DNA of 64,000 bases from Anadara kagoshimensis (taxonomy: Eukaryota > Mollusca > Bivalvia > Arcoida > Arcidae). Location of the stretch: the NCBI GenBank assembly GCA_021292105.1, contig CM037872.1:13480791-13544790 (forward strand). Reading direction: 5' to 3'. Position 1 is the stretch's first letter, and each line of letters begins with the position of its first letter. Shown here piece after piece: positions 12,253 to 64,000 of the stretch. The notes beneath the pieces were generated by a model. That model did no database searches. It had not been told where the DNA came from and was given only the letters and a program-made list of their open reading frames with translations. The position numbers and the translations under genes were made by a program.

Positions 12253-15200
12253 TTTTTAGCTCACCTGACCGAAGGTCATGTGAGCTTATGGCATAGGGCA
12301 GCGTGTGTATGTGCGTGTGTGCGTGTGTGCGTGTGTGCGTCGTTAACACCCATTTTCGACTTCTCCTCTGAAACTACTGGACAGTTTTTAATGAAACTTT
12401 GTCAGAAGTATATATGGGCCGGTGCAATTCAGATTTGTTCGTGGCGTTGCCATGGCTACCATAACTAGGTCAAGGTGACCTAGGGGTGCAAAAATCTTAA
12501 AAAATCTTCTTCTCTGAAAGTACTGATTGGAGAAAAAATCTGATGTGATATTTGGCTTCTCTAGGGTCTTAAGCCTATAGTTTGTTCATTTTGTAAAATT
12601 CGGATAAAAATAGGTTACGCGTTTTTGCGTTTAATTTTGAAAAAATCGTAAAATAGCTTCAAATTGTTATAACTTGACTATTTGACCAGATAATGACATG
12701 GGGTTTTCAGTTTTGACATCTACTTGTTAGTATCTTCAAAATGAGGTCAAGGTCAATTGTGAAGGTCGTGACCTAATTTTTTTTTACCTCTGATTATAAT
12801 TATTATCTCGAAAACTTTAAACTTTTTGTATAGGCATGTATATTAGAATGTTGTAGGTATTGATACAACAATCATTTTGATGTATAGAAAAAGGTCATGG
12901 GTTTAAAGGTCGAGGTCACAGATGTGAAACAATACATAAATGGTTAATTATCTCGAAAACTTTAAACTTTTTGTATAAGCATGTATATTAGAATGTTGTA
13001 GGTATTGATACAACAATCATTTTGATGTATAGAAAAAGGTCATGGGTTTAAAGGTCGAGGTCACAGATGTGAAACAATACATAAATGGTTAATTATCTCG
13101 AAAACTTTAAACTTTTTGTATAAGCATGTATATTAGAATGTTGTAGGTATTGATACAACGATCATTTTGATGTATAGAAAATGGTCATGGGTTCAAAGGT
13201 CAAGGTCACAGATGCAAAACAATACGGAAATGGTTAATTATCTCGAAAACTATAAACATTTTGTATATGCATGTATATTAGAATGTTGTAGGTATTGATA
13301 CAACGATCATTTTGATGTATAGAAAAAGGTCATGGGTTCAAAGGTCAAGGTCACAGATGCGAAACAATACCGAAATGGTTAATTATCTTGAAAACTATAA
13401 ACATTTTGTATAGGCATGTATATAAGAATGTTGTAGGTATAGATACAACGATCATTTTGATGTAAAGAAAATGGTCATGGGTTCAAAGGTCAAGGTCACA
13501 GATGCGAAACAATACCGAAATGGTTAATTATCTCGAAAACTATAAACTTTTTGTATAGGCATGTATATGAGAATGTTGTAGGTATTGATACAATGATCAT
13601 TTTGATGTATAGAAAAAGGTCATGGGTTCAAAGGTCAAGGTCACACAGAAATGGTTAATTATCTTGAAAACTATAAACTTTTTGTATAGGCATGTATATT
13701 AGAATGTTGTAGGTATTGATACAATGATCATTTTGATGTATAGAAAAAGGTCATGGGTTCAAAGGTCAAGGTCACAGATGCGAAACAATACGGAAGTGGT
13801 TAATTATCTCGAAAACTATAAACATTTTGTATATGCATGTATATTAGAATGTTGTAGGTATTGATACAACGATCATTTTGATGTATAGAAAAAGGTCATG
13901 GGTTCAAAGGTCAAGGTCACAGATGCGAAACAATACGGATATGGTTAATTATCTCGAAAACTATAAACATTTTGTGTAGGCATGTATATCAGAATGTTGT
14001 AGGTATTGATACAATGATCATTTTGATGTATAGAAAAAGGTCATGGAATCAAAGGTCAAGGTCACAGATGCGAAACAATACCGAAATGGTTAATTATCTC
14101 GAAAACTATAAACATTTTGTATAGGCATGTATATTAGAATGTTGTAGGTATTGATACAACGATCATTTTGATGTATAGAAAATGGTCATGGGTTCAAAGG
14201 TCAAGGTCACAGATGCGAAACAATACCGAAATGGTTAATTATCTCGAAAACTATAAACTTTTTGTATAGTCATGTATATTAGAATGTTGTAGGTATTGAT
14301 ACAACGATCATTTTGATGTATAGAAAAAGGTCATGGGTTCAAAGGTCAAGGTCACAGATGTGAAACAATACCGAAATGGTTAATTATCTCCAAAACTATA
14401 AATTTTGTGTAGGCATGTATATTAGAATATTGTAGGTATTGATACAACGATCATTTTAATGTATAGAAAAAGGTCATGGGTTCAAAGGTCAAGGTCACAG
14501 ATGTGAAACAATACCGAAATGGTTAATTATCTCGAAAACTATAAACTTTTTTATAGGCATGTATATTAGAATGTTGTTAGTATTGATACAACAATCATTT
14601 TGATATATAGAAAAAGGTCATGGGTTCAAAGGTCAAGGTCACAGATGTGAAACAATACCGCAATGGTTAATTATCTTGAAAACTATAAACTTTTTGTTTA
14701 GGCATGTATACTAGAATGTCGTAGGTATTGATACAACGATCATTTTGATGTATAGAAAAAGGTCATGGGTTCAAAGGTCAAGGTCACATATGTGAAACAA
14801 TACCGAAGTGGTTAATTATCTCAAAAACTATAAACTTTTTGTATAGGCTTGTATATTAGAATGTTGTAAGTATTGATACAATGATCATTCTGATGTATAG
14901 AAAAAGGTCATGGGTTCAAAGGTCAAGGCCACAGATGCAAAACAATACTGAAATGGTTAATTATCTCGAAAACTATAAACTTTTTTGTATAGGCATGTAT
15001 ATTAGAATAATGTAGATATTGATACAACAATCATTTTGATGTATAGAAAAAGGTTATGGGTTTAAAGGTCAAGGTCACATATGCGAAACAATACAGAAAT
15101 GTTTCATTATCTTGAAAACTATTAACTTTTTGAATAGGCATGTATACTAGAATGTTGTAGGTATTGATACAACGGTTATCATGATGTAAAAAAAAAAAAC

Positions 15201-17124: not shown

Positions 17125-20100
17125 TAAGGCTCAATCAGAAATGACCATTTCAATATGTAGCATTGTGTGATCAGAATTGATTGATTCATCAATATTACAT
17201 ATTCCTGTAACATAAGATTCAATCGAACAAGGCCATTTCAATATGTAGCATCGTATGATCAGAATTTGTTGAGTCATCAATATTACATATTTCTGTAATA
17301 TAAGATTTAATTAAACATGGCCATTTCAATATGTAGAATTGTATGATCAGAATTAGCAAATTCATCAACATTACATATTTCTGTATAAGATTTTATCAAA
17401 CGTGGCCAAATTAATATGTAGCATTGTATGATCAGAATTGGTTGATTGATCAATATTACATATTTCTGTAAAATAAGATTCAATTGAACAAGGCCATTTC
17501 AATATGTAGCATTGTATGATCAGAATTTGTTGAGTCATCAATATTACATATTTCTGTAATATAAGATTGAATCAAACATGACCATTTTAATATGTAGCAT
17601 TGTGTGATCAGAATTGGTTGATTCATCAATATTACATATTCCTGTAATATAAGATTGAATCAAACATGACCATTTTAATATGTAGCATTGTGTGATCAGA
17701 ATTGGTTGATTCATCAATATTACATATTCCTGTAATATAAGATTGAATCAAACATAACCATTTCAATATGTAGCATTGCATGATCAGAATTGGTTGATTC
17801 ATCAATCTTACATATTCCTGTAATAAAAGATTGAATCAAACATGACCATTTCAATATGTAGCATTGCACGAACAGAATTAGCTGATTCATTAATATTACA
17901 TATTTCTGTAATATAAGATTGAATCAAACATGGCCATTTCAATATGTAGCATTGTGTGATCAGAATTGTTTGATTCATCAATATTACATATTTCTGTAAT
18001 ATAAGATTGAATCAAACATGGCCATTTCAATATGTAGCATTGTGTGATCAGAATAGGTTGATTCATCCATTTAACATATTTCTGTAATATAAGATTGAAT
18101 CAAATATGACCATTTCAATATGTAGCATTGTATGGTCAGAATTTGTTGATTCATCAATATTACATATTCCTGTAATATAAGATTGAATCAAACATGGCCA
18201 TTTCAATATGTAGCATTGTGCTAGGTTTCCATAAATTTAAAATAATTAGTAGCCAAATTTCCAAAATTTGTGAAAATACAGTGCTTTTTAAAGTATTTTT
18301 TCACAAATTTGCTAAAATAGGTTACTTTTTGAAAGAATTCCTCAGAAATTAGTAGCCAATGGCGATTTTGGCTACCAGGAATGGAAACATAGCATTGTGT
18401 GATCAGAATTGGTTGATTCATCAATATTACATATTCCTGTAATATAAGATTGAATCAAACATGACCATTTCAATATGTAGCATTGTACGATCAGAATTGG
18501 TTGATTCATTAGTATTACATATTCCTGTAATATAAGATTCAATCAAACATGGCCATTTCAATATGTAGCATTGTGTGATCAGAATTTGTTAATTCATCCA
18601 TTTAACATATTTCTGTAATATAAGATTGAATCAAACATGGCCATTTCAATATGTAGCATTGTGTGATCAGAATAGGTTGATTCATCCATTTAACATATTT
18701 CTGTAATATAAGATTGAATCAAATATGACCATTTCAATATGTAGCATTGTATGGTCAGAATTTGTTGATTCATCAATATTACATATTCCTGTAATATAAG
18801 ATTGAATCAAACATGACCATTTCAATATGTAGCATTGTGTGATCAGAATTGGTTGATTAATCAATATTACATATTCCTGTAAATTAAGATTAAATCAAAC
18901 ATGGCCATTTCAATATGTAGCATTGTGTGATCAGAATTTGTTGATTCATCCATTTAACATATTTCTGTTATATAAGATTGAATCAAATATGACCATTTCA
19001 ATATGTAGCATTGTATGATCAGAATTGGTTGATTCATCAATATTACATATTCCTGTAATATAAGATTGAATCAAATATGACCATTTCAATATGTAGCATT
19101 GTATGGTCAGAATTTGTTAATTCATTAATATTACATATTCCTGTAATATAAGATTGAATCAAACATGACCATTTCAATATGTAGCATTGTATGATCAGAA
19201 TTGGTTGATTCATCAATATTACATATTCCTGTAATATAAGATTGAATCAAATATGACCATTTTAATATGTAGCATTGTGTGATCAGAATTGGTTGATTCA
19301 TCAATATTACATATTCCTGTAACATAAGATTGAATCAAACATGACCATTTCAATATGTAGCATTGTATGATCAGAATTGGTTGATTCATCAATATTACAT
19401 ATTCCTGTAACATAAGATTGAATCAAACATGACCATTTTAATATGTAGCATTGTGTGATCAGAATTGGTTGATTCATCAATATTACATATTCCTGTAACA
19501 TAAGATTGAATCAAACATGACCATTTCAATATGTAGCATTGTATGATCAGAATTTGTTGATTCATCAATATTACATATTCCTGTAATATAAGATTAAATC
19601 AAACATGGCCATTTCAATATGTAGCATTGTGTGATCAGAATTTGTTGATTCATCCATTTAACATATTTCTGTAATATAAGATTGAATCAAATAAGACCAT
19701 TTCAATATGTAGCATTGTATGATCAGAATTGGTTGATTCATCAATATTACATATTCCTGTAATATAAGATTGAATCAAATATGACCATTTCAATATGTAG
19801 CATTGTATGATCAGAATTTGTTGATTCATCAATATTACATATTCCTGTAATATAAGATTGAATCAAACATGACCATTTCAATATGTAGCATTGTATGATC
19901 AGAATTGGTTGATTCATCAATATTACATATTCCTGTAATATAAGATTGAATCAAATATGACCATTTTAATATGTAGCATTGTGTGATCAGAATTGGTTGA
20001 TTCATTAATATTACATATTCCTGTAACATAAGATTGAATCAAACATGACCATTTCAATATGTAGCATTGTATGATCAGAATTTGTTGTTTCATCAATCTT

Positions 20101-23100
20101 ACATATTCCTGTAATATAACATTGAATCAAATATGACCATTTCAATATGTAGCATTGTATCATCAGAATTGGTTGATTCATCAATATTACATATTCCTGT
20201 AATATAAGATTGAATCAAACATGACCATTTCAATATGTAGCATTGTATGATCAGAATTGGTTGATTCATCAATATTACATATTCCTGTAATATAAGATTC
20301 AATCAAACATGACCATTTCTATATGTAGCATTGTATGATCAGAATTTGTTGATTCATCAATATTACATATTCCTGTAATATAAGATTCAATCAAACATGG
20401 CCATTTCAATATGTAGCATTGTATGATCAGAATTGGTTGATTCATCAATATTACATATTCCTGTAATATAAGATTGAATCAAACATGACCATTTCTATAT
20501 GTAGCATTGTATGATCAGAATTTGTTGATTCATCAATATTACATATTCCTGTAATATAAGATTCAATCAAACATGACCATTTCAATATGTAGCATTGTGT
20601 GATCAGAATTGGTTGATTCATCAATATTACATATTTCTGTAATATAAGATTGAATCAACTATGGCCATTTCAATATGTAGAATTGTATGATCAGAATCAG
20701 CAAATTCATCAACATTACGTATTTCTGTATAAGATTTTATCAAACGTGGCCAAATTAATATGTAGCATTGTATGATCAGAATTGGTTGATTGATCAATAT
20801 TACATATTTCTGTAATATAAGATTTAATTAAACATGGCCATTTCAATATGTAGAATTGTATGATCAGAATTAGCAAATTCATCAACATTACATATTTCTG
20901 TATAAGATTTTATCAAACGTGGCCAAATTAATATGTAGCATTGTATGATCAGAATTGGTTGATTGATCAATATTACATATTTCTGTAAAATAAGATTCAA
21001 TTGAACAAGGCCATTTCAATATGTAGCATTGTATGATCAGAATTTGTTGAGTCATCAATATTACATATTTCTGTAATATAAGATTTAATCAAACATGGCC
21101 AAATTAAAATGTAGCATTGTATGATCAGAATTGGTTGATTCATCAATATTACATATTCCTGTAATATAAGATTGAATCAAACATGACCATTTTAATATGT
21201 AGCATTGTGTGATCAGAATTGGTTGATTCATCAATATTACATATTCCTGTAATATAAGATTGAAGCAAACATAACCATTTCAATATGTAGCATTGCATGA
21301 TCAGAATTGGTTGATTCATCAATCTTACATATTCCTGTAATAAAAGATTGAATCAAACATGACCATTTCAATATGTAGCATTGCACGAACAGAATTAGCT
21401 GATTCATTAATATTACATATTTCATTAATATAAGATTGAATCAAACATGGCCATTTCAATATGTAGCATTGTGTGATCAGAATTGTTTGATTCATCAATA
21501 TTACATATTTCTGTAATATAAGATTGAATCAAACATGGCCATTTCAATATGTAGCATTGTGTGATCAGAATAGGTTGATTCATCCATTTAACATATTTCT
21601 GTAATATAAGATTGAATCAAATATGACCATTTCAATATGTAGCATTGTATGGTCAGAATTTGTTGATTCATCAATATTACATATTCCTGTAATATAAGAT
21701 TAAATCAAACATGGCCATTTCAATATGTAGCATTGTACGATCAGAATTGGTTGATTCATTAGTATTACATATTCCTGTAATATAAGATTCAATCAAACAT
21801 GGCCATTTCAATATGTAGCATTGTGTGATCAGAATTTGTTAATTCATCCATTTAACATATTTCTGTAATATAAGATTGAATCAAACATGGCCATTTCAAT
21901 ATGTAGCATTGTGTGATCAGAATAGGTTGATTCATCCATTTAACATATTTCTGTAATATAAGATTGAATCAAATATGACCATTTCAATATGTAGCATTGT
22001 ATGGTCAGAATTTGTTGATTCATCAATATTACATATTCCTGTAATATAAGATTGAATCAAACATGACCATTTCAATATGTAGCATTGTATGATCAGAATT
22101 GGTTGATTAATCAATATTACATATTCCTGTAAATTAAAAAAATCAAACATGGCCATTTCAATATGTAGCATTGTGTGATCAGAATTTGTTGATTCATCCA
22201 TTTAACATATTTCTGTTATATAAGATTGAATCAAATATGACCATTTCAATATGTAGCATTGTATGATCAGAATTGGTTGATTCATCAATATTACATATTC
22301 CTGTAATATAAGATTGAATCAAATATGACCATTTCAATATGTAGCATTGTATGGTCAGAATTTGTTAATTCATTAATATTACATATTCCTGTAATATAAG
22401 ATTGAATCAAACATGACCATTTCAATATGTAGCATTGTATGATCAGAATTGGTTGATTCATCAATATTACATATTCCTGTAATATAAGATTGAATCAAAT
22501 ATGACCATTTTAATATGTAGCATTGTGTGATCAGAATTGGTTGATTCATCAATATTACATATTCCTGTAACATAAGATTGAATCAAACATGACCATTTCA
22601 ATATGTAGCATTGTATGATCAGAATTGGTTGATTCATCAATATTACATATTCCTGTAACATAAGATTGAATCAAACATGACCATTTCAATATGTAGCATT
22701 GTATGATCAGAATTTGTTGATTCATCAATCTTACATATTCCTGTAATATAAGATTGAATCAAACATGACCATTTCAATATGTAGCATTGTATGATCAGAA
22801 TTGGTTGATTCATCAATATTACATATTCCTGTAATATAAGATTGAATCAGATGTGACCATTTCAATATGTAGCATTGTATGGTCAGAATTTGTTGATTCA
22901 TCAATATTACATATTCCTGTAATATAAGATTGAATCAGATGTGACCATTTCAATATGTAGCATTGTATGGTCAGAATTTGTTGATTCATCAATATTACAT
23001 ATTCCTGTAATATAAGATTGAATCAAACATGACCATTTCAATATGTAGCATTGTATGATCAGAATTTGTTGATTCATCAATATTACATATTCCTGTAATA

Positions 23101-24870
23101 TAAGATTAAATCAAACATGGCCATTTCAATATGTAGCATTGTGTGATCAGAATTTGTTGATTCATCCATTTAACATATTTCTGTAATATAAGATTGAATC
23201 AAATAAGACCATTTCAATATGTAGCATTGTATGATCAGAATTGGTTGATTCATCAATATTACATATTCCTGTAATATAAGATTGAATCAAATATGACCAT
23301 TTCAATATGTAGCATTGTATGATCAGAATTTGTTGATTCATCAATATTACATATTCCTGTAATATAAGATTGAATCAAATATGACCATTTCAATATGTAG
23401 CATTGTATGATCAGAATTGGTTGATTCATCAATATTACATATTCCTGTAATATAAGATTGAATCAAATATGACCATTTTAATATGTAGCATTGTGTGATC
23501 AGAATTGGTTGATTCATCAATATTACACATTCCTGTAACAACATGACCATTTCAATATGTAGCATTGTATGATCAGAATTGGTTGATTCATCAATCTTAC
23601 ATATTCCTGTAATATAAGATTGAATCAAATATGACCATTTCAATATGTAGCATTGTATGATCAGAATTGGTTGATTCATCAATCTTACATATTCCTGTAA
23701 TATAAGATTGAATCAAACATGACCATTTCAATATGTAGCATTGTATGATCAGAATTGGTTGATTCATCAATCTTACATATTCCTGTAATATAAGATTGAA
23801 TCAAACATGACCATTTCAATATGTAGCATTGTATGATCAGAATTTGTTGTTTCATCAATCTTACATATTCCTGTAATATAACATTGAATCAAATATGACC
23901 ATTTCAATATGTAGCATTGTATCATCAGAATTGGTTGATTCATCAATATTACATATTCCTGTAATATAAGATTGAATCAAACATGGCCATTTCAATATGT
24001 AGCATTGTATGATCAGAATTGGTTGATTCATCAATATTACATATTCCTGTAATATAAGATTGAATCAGATATGACCATTTCAATATGTAGCATTGTGTGA
24101 TCAGAATTGGTTGATTCATTAATATTACATATTCCTGTAACATAAGATTGAATCAAACATGACCATTTCAATATGTAGCATTGTATGATCAGAATTTGTT
24201 GTTTCATCAATCTTACATATTCCTGTTATATAACATTGAATCAAATATGACCATTTCAATATGTAGCATTGTATCATCAGAATTGGTTGATTCATCAATA
24301 TTACATATTCCTGTAATATAAGATTGAATCAAACATGACCATTTCAATATGTAGCATTGTATGATCAGAATTGGTTGATTCATCAATATTACATATTCCT
24401 GTAATATAAGATTCAATCAAACATGACCATTTCTATATGTAGCATTGTATGATCAGAATTTGTTGATTCATCAATATTACATATTCCTGTAATATAAGAT
24501 TCAATCAAACATGGCCATTTCAATATGTAGCATTGTATGATCAGAATTGGTTGATTCATCAATATTACATATTCCTGTAATATAAGAATGAATCAAACAT
24601 GACCATTTCTATATGTAGCATTGTATGATCAGAATTTGTTGATTCATCAATATTACATATTCCTGTAATATAAGATTCAATCAAACATGACCATTTCAAT
24701 ATGTAGCATTGTGTGATCAGAATTGGTTGATTCATCAATATTACATATTTCTGTAATATAAGATTGAATCAACTATGGCCATTTGAATATGTAGCATTGT
24801 ATCATCAGAATTAGCGGATGCATCAATATTACATATTTCTATTATATTTCTGTAATGTAAGATTCAAATT
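17125..24870. repeat. 88-bp satellite array, ~86 units
   Basis: The period is 88 bp. The monomer includes tgaccatttcaatatgtagc, attgtatgatcagaattggt, tgattcatcaatattacata and ttcctgtaatataagattga. ATATTAC and GTAATAT can pair as a small hairpin in most units. As 88 is not a multiple of 3, the minus-strand frames of ~60-110 residues are artefacts. Variant monomers (agcaaattcatcaacattac; aacgtggccaaattaatatg) recur with a ~3.5-kb offset (17381 versus 20898), showing that a block of about 40 monomers was duplicated. Confidence 0.95.
18221..18391. mobile_element. 171-bp MITE inserted in the satellite
   Basis: Ends are taggtttccat and atggaaacata (inverted, one mismatch), flanked by the direct repeat GCATTGTG (18213-18220 and 18392-18399). 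The 8-bp duplication and tip sequence suggest a hAT-type non-autonomous element; the superfamily call is inference. Internal ttagtagcca motifs occur near both ends. Confidence 0.8.
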
Positions 24871-26937
24871 TGTCTAGTCACATGTGAATGTAAATAAAAT
24901 CTATACTGTGTTTTATTACATGGTAATGAATGTTTTTCTATTGTGTCATTTTGCTACAAATGACGCCATTGTATATCTTAAAACCATTTTCCACTTCTTT
25001 CGTCAGTCAACATGTGACTGTATTCTGACTTTGTTTCCATATATTAAATAAAACATAACATTTTTTTCATGGGTATTAAAGTCAGTTGAAAGATTTGTTA
25101 CTCTGAAAAAAAAATTATAATTGAAATGACCAAGACCAGCCTATATTTCATTTTCATGTATCCAGTAATATATTAATTTGCCCTCATGCCCATATGACAG
25201 AATGGCTTACTCCAACCTCATGCAGTCATTCCAAAAATAATTGTATTGCTTATATTCTTTTAAAAGGTCAAAAATGAAATTTTGAAATCAGACTCTTTTA
25301 TGTCTCTTAAAAACAAAGATGTATATGTACAGAATTAAAAAATAAATTATTACACACTCCAAATTCGAAATAAAAAAATTATGATAATTTCTTAGTTTCA
25401 ATAATAAAGTCATATAAAACTGTTCTAAATGACTATTATTTTGCTGGTTTTTAGCATTAATTACAGAAATGGCAAATGTTTGTAAGAACTTGTCCGGTCG
25501 AGTGATAATATATCCTGGATAAATGCTTATATGCAATCTGAAATCGTGGAACTTGACCCATGTTAGGAGGTTAGGCGTTATGGAGGTTAGAAATTAACAA
25601 CTGTGCGCTATTAACACTGAATAAATCCGAATTTGACATCATTTTAATACTAAGAAGACATATGCCACTGTTTTTCTAAAATAAAATACAATTTTATCAT
25701 ATCAACGTAGTTTTTCAGAAAATGGTGTAACGGAGGTTAGTTCCTTATATGAGACATTGAAAAATTCTATCTCAATATTGGATTTAAAGACATGGTTTAA
25801 AAATTCCTATCTAATATAAAGTTTCCCCCTGTACTCTTAGGCCATCATTGTAATCTGAAATAAGTTTCATATCTTTATTGCTTTTAGTTATGAATTCCTC
25901 ACGTAATGAAATATCTGTTACAGGTTAGGAATTTTTACCGACACATGTAAAATAACCGGTTCAAAATTATGAATGATCACTTTTAGAAAATCTACTCGGT
26001 TCAAGACCCTATCTGATGTTAAGAAATAAATCTGATAGAATTTGTAAAATGGTTCCATTTAAAAACTATAATATAAGCTCTGAAAGTTTACATATTGCTA
26101 TTGCAACATGCTCAAACGTCACATTTTCCTTCCAGAATCTGTCTCCACGGACAAGAAAAACCATTGTCAACTTTAAACGTTACGATATTATTTTGGAATG
26201 ACTGCATGGTATATTCTGCTGCATAGACTTTTGAAATTAAAATGTAGATTTCGTTTTATATACTGCATGACCCATATTTGTCAATTAAACAATAAAAAAA
26301 ATGTCTGTAATATAAATGGCATAATTCATATGATACTGTGTTATATTTGATGTTTTAATTGCTGAATATACAAATATTCCACTGTAGAAATTTTATATAT
26401 TTCAATATATCTTAGAAATCTTTTTTATTTTTTTAAAATAACCTTTTTTTCAACTTATAATTGATTAATTCATGTTAATTTAAAAAAAATTAAAGGGAAA
26501 TAACCACTACAGAGAATTCTTACAAATGTATTTAATTATAGGTTTTTTGTATTTGAAAGGGAGATAACCATTATAGAAAATCGTTAAATTACAGTTTTTT
26601 GTAATACAAACATGACAAAGTAAAGAGAGATAACTCTTATTACTTTGTTATATTACAGATTACTGTAAGATTACAATATTTTGTAAGTCCCTGGACTGTA
26701 TATATAGCACATTAGTAGTACTACATTTCAGACATTTTTGCTGCTTTTCTTAGTTTTCCTGGCTACATATCATATAAATCGGCCCCCAAATCTTAAAATT
26801 GGCTAACGTTTTGGCTTCAACTTTTCAAGAGCCAGAGCTCTAACCCTGTAATTGGACACCACGAATTGTTTGTTTATCAACCGATATTTAATACGAGTTA
26901 CTCCTCTTTGTACGGAACATTTTATTTATCAACTAAT
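24871..26937. other. No gene seen; short degenerate repeats
   Basis: 26510-26640 holds three loose ~65-bp copies with gggagataac and tacagattttttgtaa-like text. ggaggttag recurs at 25566, 25581 and 25733. I found no TM1-TM2 exon for the GPCR downstream. Nothing else is supportable. Confidence 0.45.
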
Positions 26938-27051
26938 GCCCGGAATTGTTTGTTTTTAGGTATGCTTCAGAGAGTGTGTACGGAGCATATTATTTATCAA
27001 CCAAATTTAAAGCCCGGAATTGTTTGTTTTTAGGTATGCTTCAGAGAGTGT
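26906..27051 (+). repeat. Tandem duplication of a splice-acceptor region
   Basis: The 40-bp string at 26938-26977 (gcccggaattgtttgttttt, then aggtatgcttcagagagtgt) repeats exactly at 27012-27051, 74 bp apart. The preceding tacggaacattttatttatc is also duplicated with small changes. Each copy supplies a TTTTTAG acceptor; only the second continues into the GPCR frame. Confidence 0.85.
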
Positions 27052-27953
27052 TTTTAGACTCTCAGTGGATGGTGGTGTTGTCCCTCGCTGTTGTCAGATT
27101 GAGGCTCAGCTGCTGTAAGCAGATCACGATACTACTAGTGGACAATTCTCCAACGTATATCACGCTATGTGTTTTACTTCTACTCCCCATCACGAACGCA
27201 ATAACCACCTTTGTGTCCTTTCTACCTACTGATGGAGATGTACATTTGTCCCAAAGGAATTATAGCAAAAAGGCTGTATCGAACAGGTCCGACATTTTCA
27301 TGACCTGTCAACAACATGGTACTCTGGAGTCAAAGGTTATGCCTTATGTAGCTTTGAGTTTTATTCCGCTGCTCATAACATGCGGCATATATTTGGCCAT
27401 CTTTTTCCGGATATCAAAATTTCCTGTCTATGCAGATGGAATGTTCAATGACGTCCGCCAATTTAACAGACGACGTTTTAGAAAACAAATCAAGATGGCC
27501 TTTTTAACTTTACTTGCGATGTTGCTTTTGTTTTGGTTCCCTTACACTGTACTTGAAATCCTCGTGATGGTGTCCAATGGGTACATAAATATTCATGTAC
27601 TCAGAATTCTGTTATACCTGAAAACTGTCATTTTTCTATTGCATCCATTCAGTGATGCAGGGTTTGACAGGTTTCGAAAAAACCTACTGTCGATGAAAAT
27701 TGCCTATCTACACGAAAGCCCTTTTCCCCAATTGAGAGATAAAAAAGAAGATGTAAAAGGCCATTGCTTTTCACCGGAAGATATTCCAAAAGGCAACGAA
27801 CATAATCCTCTTAGTCACACGCAGTTGACTATGCCAACAGGAAATAATTGCATCCGGGACTTTAATGACATCATGATCATGGATGACGAATTAGAAATCG
27901 GTGATCAACGTCTGCGCATGAAGAATTCGCGTCCTTTGTCTTATCTGTACTGA
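27034..27953 (+). CDS. Class A GPCR, 3' exon (TM3-TM7), 5' partial
   Basis: Multi-pass membrane receptor fragment of 305 residues counted from ATG 27036. TM3 is ~6-26 (SQWMVVLSLAVVRLRL), TM4 ~40-62, the second extracellular loop carries Cys91 and NxS sites (75, 83), TM5 is ~102-127, TM6 ~150-178 (FWFPYT for the usual CWxPY), and TM7 ~184-212 ending HPFSDAGF in place of NPxxY. RRRFRKQ and DRFRKN flank TM6 and TM7 as basic cytoplasmic ends. The tail is ~90 residues. The pattern resembles lophotrochozoan peptide-type (FMRFamide-receptor-like) receptors. TM1-TM2 were not found in the window, so the ATG at 27036 is probably internal and the exon begins after TTTTTAG at 27033. The E/DRY arginine site reads VRL. 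It may be a divergent receptor or a decaying copy. Stop TGA; AATAAA at 28259-28264 is a possible polyA signal. Confidence 0.72.
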
Positions 27954-35918: not shown

Positions 35919-38900
35919 CTAAAGCAAAAAAACGAGAGTGTTAAAACATAACTGTAATGTTGAAAAAAGTTTTATAGCCGTAATCACTTTAAAGTTTTTG
36001 GTGCGGTAATTTTCGTCAAATTTCCGACATTTAAAATGTATTACATATTGTTTGAAATGCTTAAAAAATGAAAATTATTCGTATAAAATACTCAAAATCA
36101 CTTGCACAAGAATGCTACGGGTTGAAGTACCGATAACAGTTTCAAGCTTATCGCTCGGTTGTCGCCATTTTACCTAATGAATATGCATGATTTTAACCAT
36201 ATTAAGGTCGTCCAAATTAATCACGTGACACGAAAGTAAAGCAGAAAAATGGCGTCGGAGGTAAGGCACATGTTATTGTTTGCTGTTGTTTTGCCAATTT
36301 TTTTACATGCACACTCTTTTTTCGTTTTTTGGCCGAATCCGACAACGTTTGAGGTCTCCCCGCTTTCATTGGCCGATTACTGTCGCCATCTTTTGTTTGT
36401 CTCGTATGCTAATTTGGGTCACGTGATACCTGCCGACCTCGATCTGATGAATTTTAGACATGCCAACCCAAAATTATTTCTGAAACATATTTATTTTCTA
36501 AACATTTGAGTCCGATTACTAAAAATTTTACAATTAAGCGAATCGTCATAACTCTTATAATTTGTGAAAAATAAGGGTTTTGTGAGTTTTATTTTAAATG
36601 TCGGAAATTTAACGAAAATTACCGCACCAAATACTTTAACTATCATTATGATAACTTCCATGTTCTTTTCATTTTCAATTTTTAATTCACACATAGCGAA
36701 TGAAACTAGCTAGACTGAAAATTCTTAATCTTCCAGAGAACCGTACCCGGCCTCACTTTCCAACCCTTGTGGAACATCACGTGTGAAACTTTATTTGCCA
36801 GGTTTCTAAGTATTTACTTTGCCTTTGGTATTGTAATTTAAACACGGACGATGTTCTTGTCTCCGATTTTAAGGTTGATCTGTACGAGTATTATCTCGCA
36901 ATATAAAACAAGTAACCTAAATTGGGACATTGTCTTGTCTATATGCAACTCAACTGAACTGCTATATTTATGGAGTTTAGGGAGAGAGAAGGACAGAAAG
37001 AGAGAGAGACAGAGAGGGAGAGAGTTTTGTCTATATGCAACACAACTAAACTGCTGTGTTTATGTAGAGAGACAAACATGAGAGAGAGTATTATATTACC
37101 GCTGGCGATATCTGTATTGGCCGTTCCATCACTATCCAAATGTTGTTGGGTTTACACGGAGGAACAGATGACGATCCAACATAATTGTAAAAACTTCCCG
37201 TTGATGGTAGAATATCAGACAGAAATAGTGACGTATTGTGACCTTTATCTACAAAAACAAAATAAATGGAATATTAATTATAAATTGTCACGCGGCATTT
37301 TTATAGACTTAAAAGACTCATTTCTTGTGTTTGTAGTTTGTCAAAAATTTATGAAAAATTGTTTTTCAATGTTTCAAAAGAAAGAATCGCATCTTATATT
37401 AGTTAAGCAGATTAAAGCCAGGATTAAAAATACGCTCAAAGATACTTAAAAGTATATTAAGCACTGGAATTTGGCCTCAGTATCACAATGATTCTGTAAC
37501 CAAAGTTTCTTGACTTAAATCTGACAAATTTTGACAAAATTTTATGGTATTAAAATAAAAAATTCAACTAATAACATTAATAACATTAATTTTAGAATGA
37601 AGATGTAAAAAGTTAAAACTATCTAAAAATGACACATCAAATCCACGAATATCTTGAAAACTAACGATATTTTCATTTTTCATTTGCCAGATTTAAGTTA
37701 GTCAATTAGGAATTATTGTAAAACTGAGGTCAAACTACCTTTATGCGACCTTTAAGTTGTTGGCGCCACAACTTATAGGGATACTGAAGTCTAGCGGATT
37801 ATGACCAAAATCGATAGTTATAAGTACAAAATTAATCATAAAATTCAAAAAAATAAAAAGTTATTCCATTAAGGTATATCTTTAGCTATTTGAAAATTGC
37901 CGAAATCGTCGCTGCAGCTCTTTTGTGTTGGAGGTGAGAAGAACACCCTGTGACGTGATGTGTGAACAAACCTCGCCATTACAACCGCTATTGAAATAAC
38001 GACCACTATTGAAATAATATTTCAATAGCGGTTGAGAATGCACTGAAATAACGACCACTATTGAAATAATTTCAATAGCGGTTGAGAATGCACTGAAATA
38101 ACGACCACTATTGAAATTGGAATAATTATTTCAATAGCGGTTGAATCTGCACTGAAATAACGACCTCTATTGAAATAATTATTTCAATAGCGGTTGAGAA
38201 TGCACTGAAATAACGACCACTATTTAAATAATAATTATTTCAGTAGCGGTTGAGAATGCACTGAAATAACGACCTCTATTGAAATAATTATTTCAATAGC
38301 GGTTGAGAATGCACTGAAATAACGACCTCTATTATTTCACTAGCGGTTGGGAATGCACTGAAATAACGACCACTATTGAAATAATTTCAATAGCGGTTGA
38401 GAATGCACTGAAATAACGACCACTATTGAAATTATTTCAATAGCGGTTGAGAACTGAAATAACGACCACTATTGAAATAATAATGTCATAAGAACTTTTT
38501 TCTACACGAATAACCTAACCGCCTATTGAATATATTTGCGGTGACGATTATGTTTATCACTGCACAACCGCGTGTACCAGTGAATATGATCTTATTCGTT
38601 AATTAATAGTGATATATTTTACCATACCAAAAACAAAAGTTATAAGAGGTATTTGTTGAGGAACAGTCGTAATTTACCTCTGTTTTCTAATGTATAGTAT
38701 ATACTGGTAAGTTTATACATTAGCTTGTTTCCTATAAACAGTATATACTGGTCAAAATCATTACGAAAACCTTGCATGTACAGCTGCATTTTTCGAATTT
38801 AAGGTGCTTTGATTTTATTATTAAGATATCAGTTTAAATATTTTTAAGAAGGGTTTTTTCTATAACATTCAGTTTATAAACATAATGAACTATAATCCAT

Positions 38901-41900
38901 ACATATTAACCGCAAATTTTTTCAGAGAAGAAAATGATAAGATATTTCAGATCTGATATATAAGACCCAAGTTAAAAAATAACATTGAGCTAAATTATAC
39001 AATGCATAAGTACAGGACTTAAAATCTTCTTCAATGATACATCAAAATTGCACTGCAATATGTATTTCCCATTATTTTAAAAAAGAGATGGGAGGCAATA
39101 AAACAATACATTAAAATATTACCGTATGTGACAAGTTCATCTGCAAAGGCATTGAGACAGAAAAGGAAGAAAAAACTAGTTTTTTTCAGTGCCACTACTT
39201 ATCATTTGTTATTGCTAACCAATCGAAATAGACTCGGAGTCACGGGGTGCTTTCAAGAGAAGAAGTCACTTTGTACTGATCAACAGAGGTAAGTGTTTTT
39301 TAAAAATAATAAATAAATAAAATTTATAAATTACTATATTCAGTGGGATTCATAAAGTAAAACCATTTAAAAAGAACGAGATAGAAAAGTGTGTATCTTA
39401 CAATTCATAAAATGCAGTTTTCTTCTTTAAAACGTTATGACAAAATACAAATAAAAGATGAACATGTTAGGATTCATATTGCAGTTCGTAATTTTTAAAT
39501 TTAAGCAGAGCGATATTTAGACTAATTTCAAGAAACAACTTTCTAGTCTATATGTGCATTTATATAAACACAACAATATACATTAGGGTTAATCCAGTGT
39601 AATTAAACCATTGGACGTGAAAACGGCAAAACAAAGTGTACACGTGAACTTCCAGCATGGAAGTGAGGCCGGATGCTCCGGAAGCAGGCCCGTAGCAGCC
39701 CATTTGAAAGTGGGGGGGGGGGGCAAACCAAAGGGTCAAGGGAAGACAGTGTGCCGCAGGCGCGCATGCGCTAGGGGATCTGGGGGCATGCTCCCCTAGG
39801 AAAATTTTAAAAATTAAAGTCAATATATGCAATTTCCTGAATTATGAGAATTAAAAAATATCTTTCAGTACTTCAGAAATTTTTGATAACATATTCACTC
39901 AAGAAAGACACGCTTAATGAAACCAAAACTATTTTAGAATTTATTGGCATAATATGTATTTTTAATTTGCAACAAATTTTGACAATATTGTGTGGGTGGG
40001 TGAGCTAGGGGGTCTGGGGCATGCTCCCCCGGAAAATTTTTAAAAATTGAAGTCATAATACCGAATTTCCTGAATTCTGAGAAAAAAGATATCCTGTAGT
40101 AATTCAGAAATTATTAATAACAAATACATTTACATACAATAAAAATACTTTTACCGAAACTCAAACTATTTTCGAATTAATCTGTAAGTGTTTGTTAATT
40201 TGCACAACTGAAATTAGTTATTTTAACAATATGTTGCACAGTTATACGTGACATGCGAGTGACGTGTGAGCGTGAGTCGGAAAAAAAAAATTAAAATTAG
40301 GCTAAAATGCTGCATGATTTGCCTTTTTAGACAAACTTATTGTATCGTACGCATTGGCGCCGAAGGCGCAGCGCTCATGGACATCTTTATTACCAAAGAT
40401 TATGTTCTCAGGACTATCAAACAGACTTTATAAAAAAAAATGGCCAAAAAAGTGGGGGGGGGGCGGTCCCCCTTGGCCCCCCCATCTCCTACGGGCCTGG
40501 GAAGAGTGAGCGCCTCCTGGTTTGCATGCAACATCCGCCATGTGTTAATCCAAAATAAGGTGTATATATACGACAGTTGACTGAAACTACCAGGTATCAT
40601 AGATATCAAAGACCAGCTTGGACATAGAGACACTATATTTGTTGACAAAGTCATGATGACGACCATAAAACTTTTTAATAGTTCTAATAAGCCTGGCCTT
40701 ACAACATCCCTGTGTCAATAACTTGTTAGTGAGCAGCTTAGTATTTGAAAGGTCGTTTCTTCTCTCCTTGTAATCAAACATAGTATGGTATATTGTAAGT
40801 GAAAACTGTATTCCTTATAATAGGCGAATACAATTATGGCCGATTTCCATGTTCCAATCGACATGGTGATAAGGGACATTTCAGTCCCTGCCATAGTACA
40901 TAATATAATGATCGTACAATGTGTTCTAAGAGTAACTTTGAATGTTATGTGATATGAAACGGATGGACGCACATCTGAAAATAACGACCTTTAGATATGC
41001 ATAAAAATGACATTCTGGTGATCAATTTTGTAAAGTTTGAGTAAAATCCCTTCAGTAGTTTGGAAGGAGTTGTGGATACACGCTTTCTGGACGGACAGAC
41101 AGACGGCCAAACGTACGGACTCACATCTGACAACAACGCCCTTTGGATACGCATAAAAGGACTTCCTGATGATCAATTTTGTAAAGTTTGAGTGAAATCC
41201 CTTCAGTAGTTTGGTAGGAGTTGCGGATACAAGACCGGACAGACGGACAGACCGACAGACTGACAGACGGACATCGACTATCACTATAATCCCCTTTCGG
41301 TTTCACCGATAGGGGACTAATAATTATTTCAATATAGGTCGTTATTTCAGTGCAGATACAACCGCTATTAAAATAATTTCAATAGTGGTCGTTATTTCAG
41401 TGCATTCCCAACCGCTATTGAAATTATTTCAATAGTGGTCGTTATTTCAATAGCGGTTGCAACGTGAAAGTTGTTAAAATTATTGTTTAAGTATGGTTTT
41501 GTGTGCGACAGTTGGTTGTAAAAATAATTAAAAAAAATTATAATAACTTAGAACTTGTCTCTATTTAGACCTATTTCAAATTGAATAATGACCAATATCG
41601 GCAAAATAACACAGGGATCTATGCATCAACTGACCTAAAATAATATTTTTTTTCACGATAAATCGATTAGATCTCAATTTATTAAAAGTATAATTTATAT
41701 CCCTTTCTCGCATACAGGTAATTAAGAGATTATCAGTAACCTACACTACCTTTAGATCATGTTTATTAGACATTCCATCGACGGTAATCAAGAGGTAGAT
41801 CTACCTTACAATATACAACATATTCATAATTTGACTTTCCAATCACTAAACACTATGACAGCAAGTTGGTTTTGAACTTGCATATTTATTGTTATACCAA

Positions 41901-60125: not shown

Positions 60126-60259
60126 CTGGTGATAGATAATTTTACCAATATACACCCCCGTCCCCCGTACAAAATAGATGCAGTTTCGGCCGTTTGAATT
60201 ACGATTACATCTTCTGAATATGTTTTTGATGTCGCAGCTAATCAAGTAACTTATAACAT

Positions 60260-61563
60260 CACAGTGTGGGAACGGAAGTTCAGTGAAACTGTACAGTCGC
60301 CGGTAGATCTGTTTTATGAAAAGACGAATGAAAACAGTTGGGTCAAACTTATGTGTAATTATCTAAAATTATTGTTGTTATTGTCTGTACAGGTAGCTCA
60401 ACAACAGGCAATAAAGCTTCGCTGCATAAATCGAGTATAAGGAACGCTTTCCTCTAATAGAATGATTATAATCCATTCATAAAATCCTCCAATCCTACTT
60501 TAAAGTAAGATTTGATTTCACGAAATGATTATTCAAGCAAGGAATGTTTCATTTATATGGAGACAGTAAGGACATTGCAATGGTTTTTGTTGATGTCTAC
60601 TCAGTTTAGAGAAAACCAAAGACCATCGGCAAGCGAACTTACAAAACTTCTCGCACTAGGAAATGTCATAAGTAAGGTTCCTCATTTATTGCTTTAAAAT
60701 TTGTTCAAATAGCAAAATAAAAAAATGTATAATGGGACTGAAGTTCTACCGGTTTTACAAAAGTTATGTCCCTTGTCTATAGACCCCATCCCGGAAGAAT
60801 TTAAAACTTCTTTTCTCTATAAGAATTTTGAAGATTTTTCCCATAAAGGTTTAATGTATTTAAGAGCATATTAGTAACAAAATATTTCCTGTTGCAATTA
60901 GTTCGAAATTAAACTGTAAATTGACTGGACTATATAATTATTGCTTTTCGTTAACACAAGAAATTTAAAAAACATTCAATATTAAAATATTCAGCATGTA
61001 GTAGCAAAAATCATAGTCAATTAATAATGAAGAGAACATTGAATTATTTTGTTTTAATTTTGAGCTACCTGGACAGAGATATTACCTGTATAGTATGATC
61101 CAAACTACCCGTACAATAAACAACTTCCAAGGTGCAAAGAAAAATCTTATTTTTAGCGATAACTATTTATAGGAGCGTGGTGGCTTCTTTATACTGTTTA
61201 TCTTTGCACTATACGTTGCCTTGAGGATTGTTTGTTTTAATAGAAAATACAACACATCGGAGAATTCATGCGTTTTTCGCGATTAGTCGAGGTGTTTTGT
61301 TAATTTTTTTCGTGTTCAAGTATCGTTATTGTCGAATGTATGCAACTATATATGATAGCGATTTTTTGAAATGGTGTACACTGTACATTTCGTTAAATTT
61401 CTCCAAAAAAATTGATAAAAATATATTACAGTATGTGCTTATTGTTGGCTAATAAGTTCTCGCCAACCGTTTCAGCCATGATCATTTTCATTCGTTTTTC
61501 GCTTCAGAAGACAGAGCTACCGACGACTGTACAGTTTGACTGAACTTCCGTACCCACACTGTG
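60260..61563. mobile_element. 1.3-kb element, CACAGTG tips, 5-bp TSD (Transib-like)
   Basis: Tips cacagtgtgggaacggaagt and its inverted partner extend ~75 bp with few mismatches (…ctgtacagtcgccggtag…). AACAT flanks both ends (60255-60259; 61564-61568). There is no transposase frame; the interior includes a gaccatcggcaagcgaac repeat piece. The first seven bases equal the RSS heptamer consensus. Lies in the intron of the small secreted-protein candidate. Confidence 0.83.
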
Positions 61564-61667
61564 AACATGTGTGTGTAAAACAAAGATTGAAAGTCTATAC
61601 AGTATATACAATTGTTTGCAATCGAGATATCTCAAACGTATTAGAATTTCGTGCATTACTTTGTAGG

Positions 61668-63112: not shown

Positions 63113-64000
63113 AACAAGAGGCCCATGGGCCTTAACGCTCACCTGAGGAAGAGTACATATCTTATGCAGAGGTTCAATAGTCAATAAAATTAATAAAAGG
63201 AATATCAAAATTTTCAGCAGTAAGGGCCAATAATATGCAAGTATTTTTGCAAATTAATTGTAATAATTATTATATAAGTATACTATATATAACATATTTA
63301 AAGTCTAGCTACAATATATTATTTATAAACAGCTAAAACATGTGCATTAGGCCAATACCGACAATATTCCAATATACATGCCTATACAAAGAGTTTATAG
63401 ATTTTGAGATAATTAACCATTTAAGTATTCGTTTGCATCTATGACCTTGACCTTTGAACCTATGACCTTCATTTATATATCAAAATGATTGTTGTGCAAA
63501 TGCCTACAATATTCCAATATACATGCCTATACAAAAAGTTTATAGTTTTTGAGATAATTAACCATTTAGGTATTCGTTTATGTCTATGACCTTGACCTTT
63601 GAACCTATCACCTTCATTCATATATCAAAATGATCGATAGGCCAATACCTACAATATTCTAATATACATGCCTATACAAAAAGTTGATAGTTTCTGAGAT
63701 AATTAACCATATAAGTATTAGTTTGCATCTATGACCTTGACCTTTGAACCTATGAACTTCATTCATATATCAAAATGATTGCTGTGCAAATGCCTACAAT
63801 ATTCTAATATACATGCCTATACAAAAAGTTTATAGTTTTTGAGATAATTAACTATTGAAGTAATCGTTCGCGTCTATGACCTTGACCTTTGAACCTATGA
63901 CCTTCATTCATATATCAAAATGGTCGATAGGCCAATACCTACAATATTTTAATATACATGCCTATACAAAAAGTTTATAGTTTCTGAGATAATTAACCAT
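63113..64000 (-). mobile_element. Pearl-like element, cut by the window end
   Basis: Starts aacaagaggcccatgggcct then taacgctcacctgagg, the reverse complement of the right end at 15255-15290. From ~63355 on it carries at least four and a half 145-bp units (ctatgaccttgacctttgaa at 63439, 63584, 63729 and so on). The left end lies outside the window. Confidence 0.85.

Follow-up and report, generated by a model that had tools for sequence, protein, structure and literature searches.

A family of non-autonomous DNA transposons with RSS-heptamer-identical tips and 5-bp target duplications in the bivalve Anadara kagoshimensis

The locus analyzed here raises the question of whether two inverted tips flanked by the same 5-mer delimit a single mobile element and, if they do, which kind of transposase is responsible for its movement. 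The tips carry CACAGTG, a heptamer identical to that of the V(D)J recombination signal (RSS), and an earlier note on this DNA had interpreted the pair as a MITE of the Transib/RAG lineage, active in this genome. We addressed the question in the window, by which we mean the whole 64,000-nucleotide stretch of Anadara kagoshimensis DNA that was analyzed, and in the genome that contains it (1.115 Gb in 36 contigs). Our results support a family of non-autonomous DNA transposons with a 5-bp target duplication, and they put forward the Transib superfamily as the best guess for the transposase that moves it, with a probability of roughly 0.62.

The 1304-bp element (Table 1) has inverted ends of sequence CACAGTGTGGG and is flanked on both sides by an exact AACAT; both features had been described previously and can be read directly. 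The left repeat starts with CACAGTGTGGG, with CACAGTG at 60260-60266 and CTGTACAG-N6-GTAGATCTG deeper inside, and the right end of the element is CCCACACTGTG. The two arms comprise 74 nt that are 85% complementary, a figure that includes one flanking base pair. Allowing up to one mismatch, CACAGTGTGGG is found in the 64 kb only at the two element ends, both exact, and the 11-bp tips alone are nonetheless unremarkable in the window, because at least two such matches occur in 8 of 100 shuffles of it. What establishes the window element as real is the combination of the long inverted repeat with identical 5-mers on either side and with further copies in the genome. Two siblings, on C3 (68216291/68216588) and C1 (45387642/45387957), contain 296 and 314 bp extra between element positions ~116-122 and 127; given that both are ~300 bp longer near element position 122, a loss of this segment from the window copy is probable.

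Table 1. Coordinates and basis of the annotated features (positions refer to the window; one gene is given by its locus)
Feature	Position	Strand	Basis
Target-site duplication, left: AACAT	60255..60259	.	Sequence; exact twin at 61564-61568
Terminal inverted repeat, left	60260..60334	+	86% over 75/79 bp with right arm, aligned as inverted repeats; tip matched genome-wide
Junction of probable ~300-bp internal deletion	60381..60386	.	Alignment gaps versus two siblings
Subterminal site, left: TGTACAGGTAGCTC	60386..60399	+	Element position 127; motif search and alignment
Subterminal site, right: one mismatch, minus strand TGTCCAGGTAGCTC	61062..61075	-	488 bp from right end
Terminal inverted repeat, right; ends CACTGTG	61485..61563	-	Inverted-repeat alignment
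Target-site duplication, right: AACAT	61564..61568	.	Sequence; twin of left 5-mer
Whole element, non-autonomous, 1304 bp	60260..61563	.	No stop-to-stop frame of at least 150 aa
RAG1-like transposase gene	L053

A genome search with the 75-bp left tip, as the earlier note had recommended, recovered the family at 40 places including the query itself (best 40 of 462 candidates), the others being 88-94% identical. The consensus of the tips includes CTGTACAG-N6-GTAGCTCTG, and CACAGTG is present in 30 of the 40 aligned tips, a count made by eye on a set that was gathered by similarity and in which some rows are duplicates. A 24-bp tip, with at most 3 mismatches, matches 477 sites in the genome (238 forward and 239 reverse), and the reversed pattern used as a control has no genomic match in either orientation (0 + 0). 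When the whole window element is used as the query (best 40 of 1159 candidates), the long interior matches are 75-83% identical, with one further piece at 69%. At that level of identity the window's own subfamily must be considered old, and the proposal that the element is active in this genome does not hold for the window copy or its subfamily. That this copy is of an ordinary kind, an old non-autonomous cut-and-paste DNA transposon, is well supported.

A variant of the tip, ending in GTTRAG, has 149 exact matches in the genome (72 + 77), and among the 100 of them listed many form convergent pairs ~2.8 kb apart. The element in L052 (C4:21771074-21773892) is 2779 bp long and has AACAT flanks too; used as a query, it aligns end to end over 30 of the 40 scored places (best 40 of 2974 candidates), that is, with itself and with 29 further copies that are 95-98% identical to it. 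The 2.8-kb copies are a sister subfamily that has both ends in common with that of the window, and the 95-98% identity of its 29 other full-length copies makes fairly recent movement plausible for this sister subfamily, though not for the window's, so that the notion of current activity may fit the former. An exact 21-mer from the tip has no match in viral contigs and none in prokaryotic contigs, and no account of this family was recognized in the literature searched, Repbase and Dfam lying outside that search.

Family copies are locally concentrated on C14, where eight whole-element matches and six tips (L018-L023) lie within about 2 Mb (60.36-62.24 Mb); flanking letters common to five of the tip loci (L019-L023) look like the product of segmental duplication, not of transposition. 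Beside another family copy, in L033:3637-9199, there are long frames of a degenerate repeat with DDSILVP-type units that extend over several kb.

To characterize the target duplication, we compiled independent pairs of ends from the 12 of 20 fetched 10-kb loci in which both ends are present, adding the window and L052 and excluding L046 as a duplicate of L041, for a total of 13. The loci dropped, being without a usable second end, were L033, L034, L038, L039, L042 (partial matches only), L048, L049 and L050. The flanks of these pairs are exactly duplicated at 5 bp in seven cases, at 4 bp in one, at 3 bp in none and at 2 bp in three. The earlier note had held that related copies with another duplication length would tell against its reading; such copies were looked for, and no pair of the 13 shows an exact match at 6-10 bp. 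Mismatched left/right pairs, which served as a control, are identical at 5 bp in 2 of 156 combinations, as expected from the fact that the window and L052 both have AACAT. The exact 5-bp duplication of L044 (AATAT) is obtained only if its tip is eroded; 4 of 5 duplicated bases agree in L032, L045 and L047, and L037 and L040, where 1 and 3 of 5 bases agree, show no convincing duplication. The duplicated 5-mers are AT-rich, with G or C at 8 of 35 bases versus 33% in the flanks.

To look for empty sites, the joined flanks of nine insertions (eight of them independent) were aligned to the fetched loci and to the window. For L035, whose insertion lies in a dispersed repeat, the alignment runs across the junction to empty relatives: L031 (85% over 397 positions) and L050 both have a single AGTCT at the insertion point, L012 has AGTGT, L017 a one-base gap, and L034 stops shortly beyond the junction. 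For the L035 copy, both the ends and the 5-bp duplication are settled by these empty relatives. The other eight joined flanks, including those of the window insertion, for which an empty site with a single AACAT had been sought, have no empty counterpart in the same sequences.

The inner part of the elements contains a further conserved feature. The motif TGTACAGGTAGCTC, with up to 2 mismatches, is present in all 9 elements inspected, as opposed to 1 match in ~117 kb outside them. In six of these elements (L052, L031, L032, L035, L036 and L044) two or three copies lie in inverted orientation ~400-500 bp inside both ends, mostly with a tandem spacing of 23-24 bp. The window copy has one site per side, the left one closer to the end than in those six copies, and L041 and L043 have one in all. 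TGTACAGGTAGCTC resembles the terminal repeat in its core, which makes the inverted tandem copies candidate transposase-binding sites. Transib elements are not known to carry subterminal tandem sites.

The earlier note had suggested looking for a full-length relative encoding a Transib or RAG1-like transposase, and no such gene could be tied to the family ends in the copies and tip matches examined. The Pfam model for RAG1 (PF12940) yields a single genomic locus, L051 (C8:56668092-56671481), where it scores 30.8 bits (positions 480-602 of 653), which is weak for a RAG1L gene. This locus contains an 832-aa frame; the 742 residues fetched from it reach 29.3 bits against PF12940, whose cut-off is 25, and the 15 sequences of solved structures that it matches are all RAG1 (best E 2.1e-5). 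The L051 protein has 63 matches in the genome (best 60 of 235 candidates) and its core alone has 87 (82 of 82 candidates scored). We compared these loci by eye with the tip matches listed, which comprise 100 of the 477, 100 of the 149 and the complete set of 76 for one tip type. No relative of L051 was seen within a tip pair among them, a comparison that a divergent Transib could escape, and L051 itself is not near any listed tip; the RAG1-like locus closest to a tip, at a distance of ~18 kb, is a weak fragment on C19. The best match of the L051 protein in the fetched loci and the window has an E of 4.5, and its 1158-bp 3′ flank contains neither CACAGTG nor CACTGTG. At the 3′ end of its reading frame, a segment that is SAP-like by eye (L051:1152-1373) is ~85% like a sharp-edged dispersed repeat, found at 39 other places and nearly always over the same 222 bp (best 40 of 1308 candidates).

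One RAG1-like relative is present as 715-aa frames on C4:28143290-28145065, C8:38664323-38666098 and C9:55909749-55911524, and a further copy of the same lineage on C10:19176758-19178109 has shorter frames. The 550 bp 3′ of this frame occur at four places, on C4, C8, C9 and C10, with a rounded identity of 100%, from which it follows that a RAG1-superfamily element has moved recently in this genome. By eye, neither CACAGTG nor CACTGTG was seen in these 550 bp; the boundary of the element lies beyond them, because all 550 bp are matched in the four copies. No exact family tip lies beside the four near-identical copies among the matches listed. Nor was a transposase-coding member found among the copies with these ends that were examined. 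The longest stop-to-stop frame of L052 is 147 aa, without Pfam matches at E up to 1, and the best match of a RAG1-like protein to L052 has an E of 1.4. Among the pairs fetched, L044 and L047 are the longest, and no transposase was recognized by eye among their up to ten longest frames of at least 80 aa; the interior of L047 contains LINE-like frames. Seven tip pairs 3.1-4.8 kb apart were seen by eye among the matches listed; the 400 bp sampled in one of them (4.08 kb) are satellite-like.

Several explanations compete for these observations. A chance pairing of dispersed repeats, instead of one element, would be compatible with 11-bp tips that by themselves are not significant in the window, but the duplication statistics, the empty relatives of L035 and the 30 full-length 2.8-kb copies (query included) of a sister subfamily carrying both ends leave this explanation with practically no weight. 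A second alternative is that the family consists of non-autonomous RAGL elements that depend on a RAG1L-RAG2L transposon such as those known from oysters; it has in common with them the CAC start and the 5-bp duplications. The V(D)J signal nonamer is ACAAAAACC, and five tips match it at no more than 3 of 9 bases at spacers 11-13 and 22-24, in agreement with the initial remark that the heptamer is not followed by an A-rich nonamer at 12 or 23 bp. Non-autonomous RAGL elements have been reported in a pearl oyster, and the end consensus of protostome RAGL elements is CACTWMCAAACKTYKBB (PMC7204232 section 6); beyond CAC the family departs from this consensus, matching it at 6 of 17 positions, which is no better than chance (98% of 20,000 random sequences beginning with CAC score at least as high). 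The search for a convergent RAG1L-RAG2L gene pair covered RAG1, for which PF12940 detects a single weak locus that, by eye, is not near the tips listed. The unmatched consensus and the lack of a nonamer disfavor the RAG1L-RAG2L lineage, and we consider this origin very improbable.

The helper could also belong to another DDE superfamily, be it a hAT-type group with 5-bp duplications, a relative of EnSpm/CACTA, Ginger2 or an undescribed one, in which case the CACAGTG end would be convergent. The absence of a Transib-type transposase tied to the family ends, among the tips listed, fits this alternative, and so would subterminal repeat arrays acting as putative binding sites: a layout of terminal plus subterminal repeats, and tandem subterminal sites in particular, recall hAT and CACTA ends. 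According to the usual rules, hAT elements have CAG-type ends and 8-bp duplications (5-bp in some groups), EnSpm/CACTA elements have CACTA or CACTG ends, CACTA in the CACTA family, with 2-4-bp duplications, and Ginger ends are TG. The family studied here differs in both duplication length and terminal bases, for its ends are CACAGTG, its exact duplications are of 5 bp, and no exact 8-bp case is found in 13 pairs. Subterminal repeats are reported to matter in the hAT-derived Kat1 (PMC4763223), and Ginger2 may leave 4- or 5-bp duplications (PMC10045372). On balance, we regard a helper from another superfamily as unlikely, yet as a contender to be taken seriously.

With the RAGL consensus unmatched and no nonamer, Transib is left as the best fit, by elimination against the usual rules for other superfamilies; of the Transib/RAG lineage initially proposed, the 5-bp duplication and CACAGTG fit the Transib part, and the RAG part, taken strictly, is disfavored. 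Transib and RAG targets are GC-rich, as a tendency rather than by definition, and the targets of this family, in contrast, are AT-rich. The family resembles Transib in its 5′-CAC, RSS-like heptamer ends and 5-bp target duplications; unlike Transib, it has inverted tandem subterminal sites, no block resembling the nonamer at 12 or 23 bp and no transposase in the copies examined. Its several hundred ends also differ from the one or few copies in which autonomous Transibs are said to exist (PMC4411706). Transib and RAGL transposons have CAC-led ends and 5-bp duplications (PMC7204232 section 6), in agreement with the earlier note; PMC4411706 and PMC8355894 likewise report CAC-led RSS-like ends with 5-bp duplications for Transib/RAGL, and PMC4455052 gives a rule used by Repbase that is based on 11 end positions in common.

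Under the Transib assignment, we infer that the element is moved in trans by a transposase, most likely from that superfamily, which would recognize the terminal repeats of ~75 bp and, probably, the TGTACAGGTAGCTC sites that lie as inverted tandems ~400-500 bp inward of the ends. This enzyme would cut just outside CACAGTG and join the ends to the target with a 5-bp stagger, giving rise to the 5-bp duplications. A more specific version of this scenario envisages a lineage of Transib class, or of a new superfamily, with bipartite ends made up of a tip identical to the RSS heptamer and distal inverted tandem sites ~430 bp inside, hundreds of non-autonomous copies and an unusual RAG1 relative as the helper; we consider it speculative and rather improbable.

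The interest of the family lies in its size, in the RSS-identical heptamer and in the distal arrays of putative binding sites. Transib is reported to be rare in molluscs, a survey of their genomes having yielded one element (PMC10294476). The presence in one genome of several hundred Transib-type ends and of recently moved RAG1-like genes provides material on the recognition of RSS-like ends outside vertebrates. If the helper is a Transib transposase, the distal sites would offer a second mode of end recognition to test; if it is not, the RSS-like heptamer would be shown to be convergent.

The window also contains several features outside the element. A 145-bp satellite is found in two places (12802-15196 and 63348-64000), which by eye are on opposite strands. 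Positions 17133-24837 are occupied by a 7.7-kb array with an 88-bp unit. A tandem, palindrome-like unit of ~50 bp is present at 37992-38482 and 41322-41449 in arrays that look related by eye. Finally, positions 26937-27953 hold a 338-aa open frame that resembles a multi-pass membrane receptor by eye and lacks Pfam matches with an E of 1 or lower.
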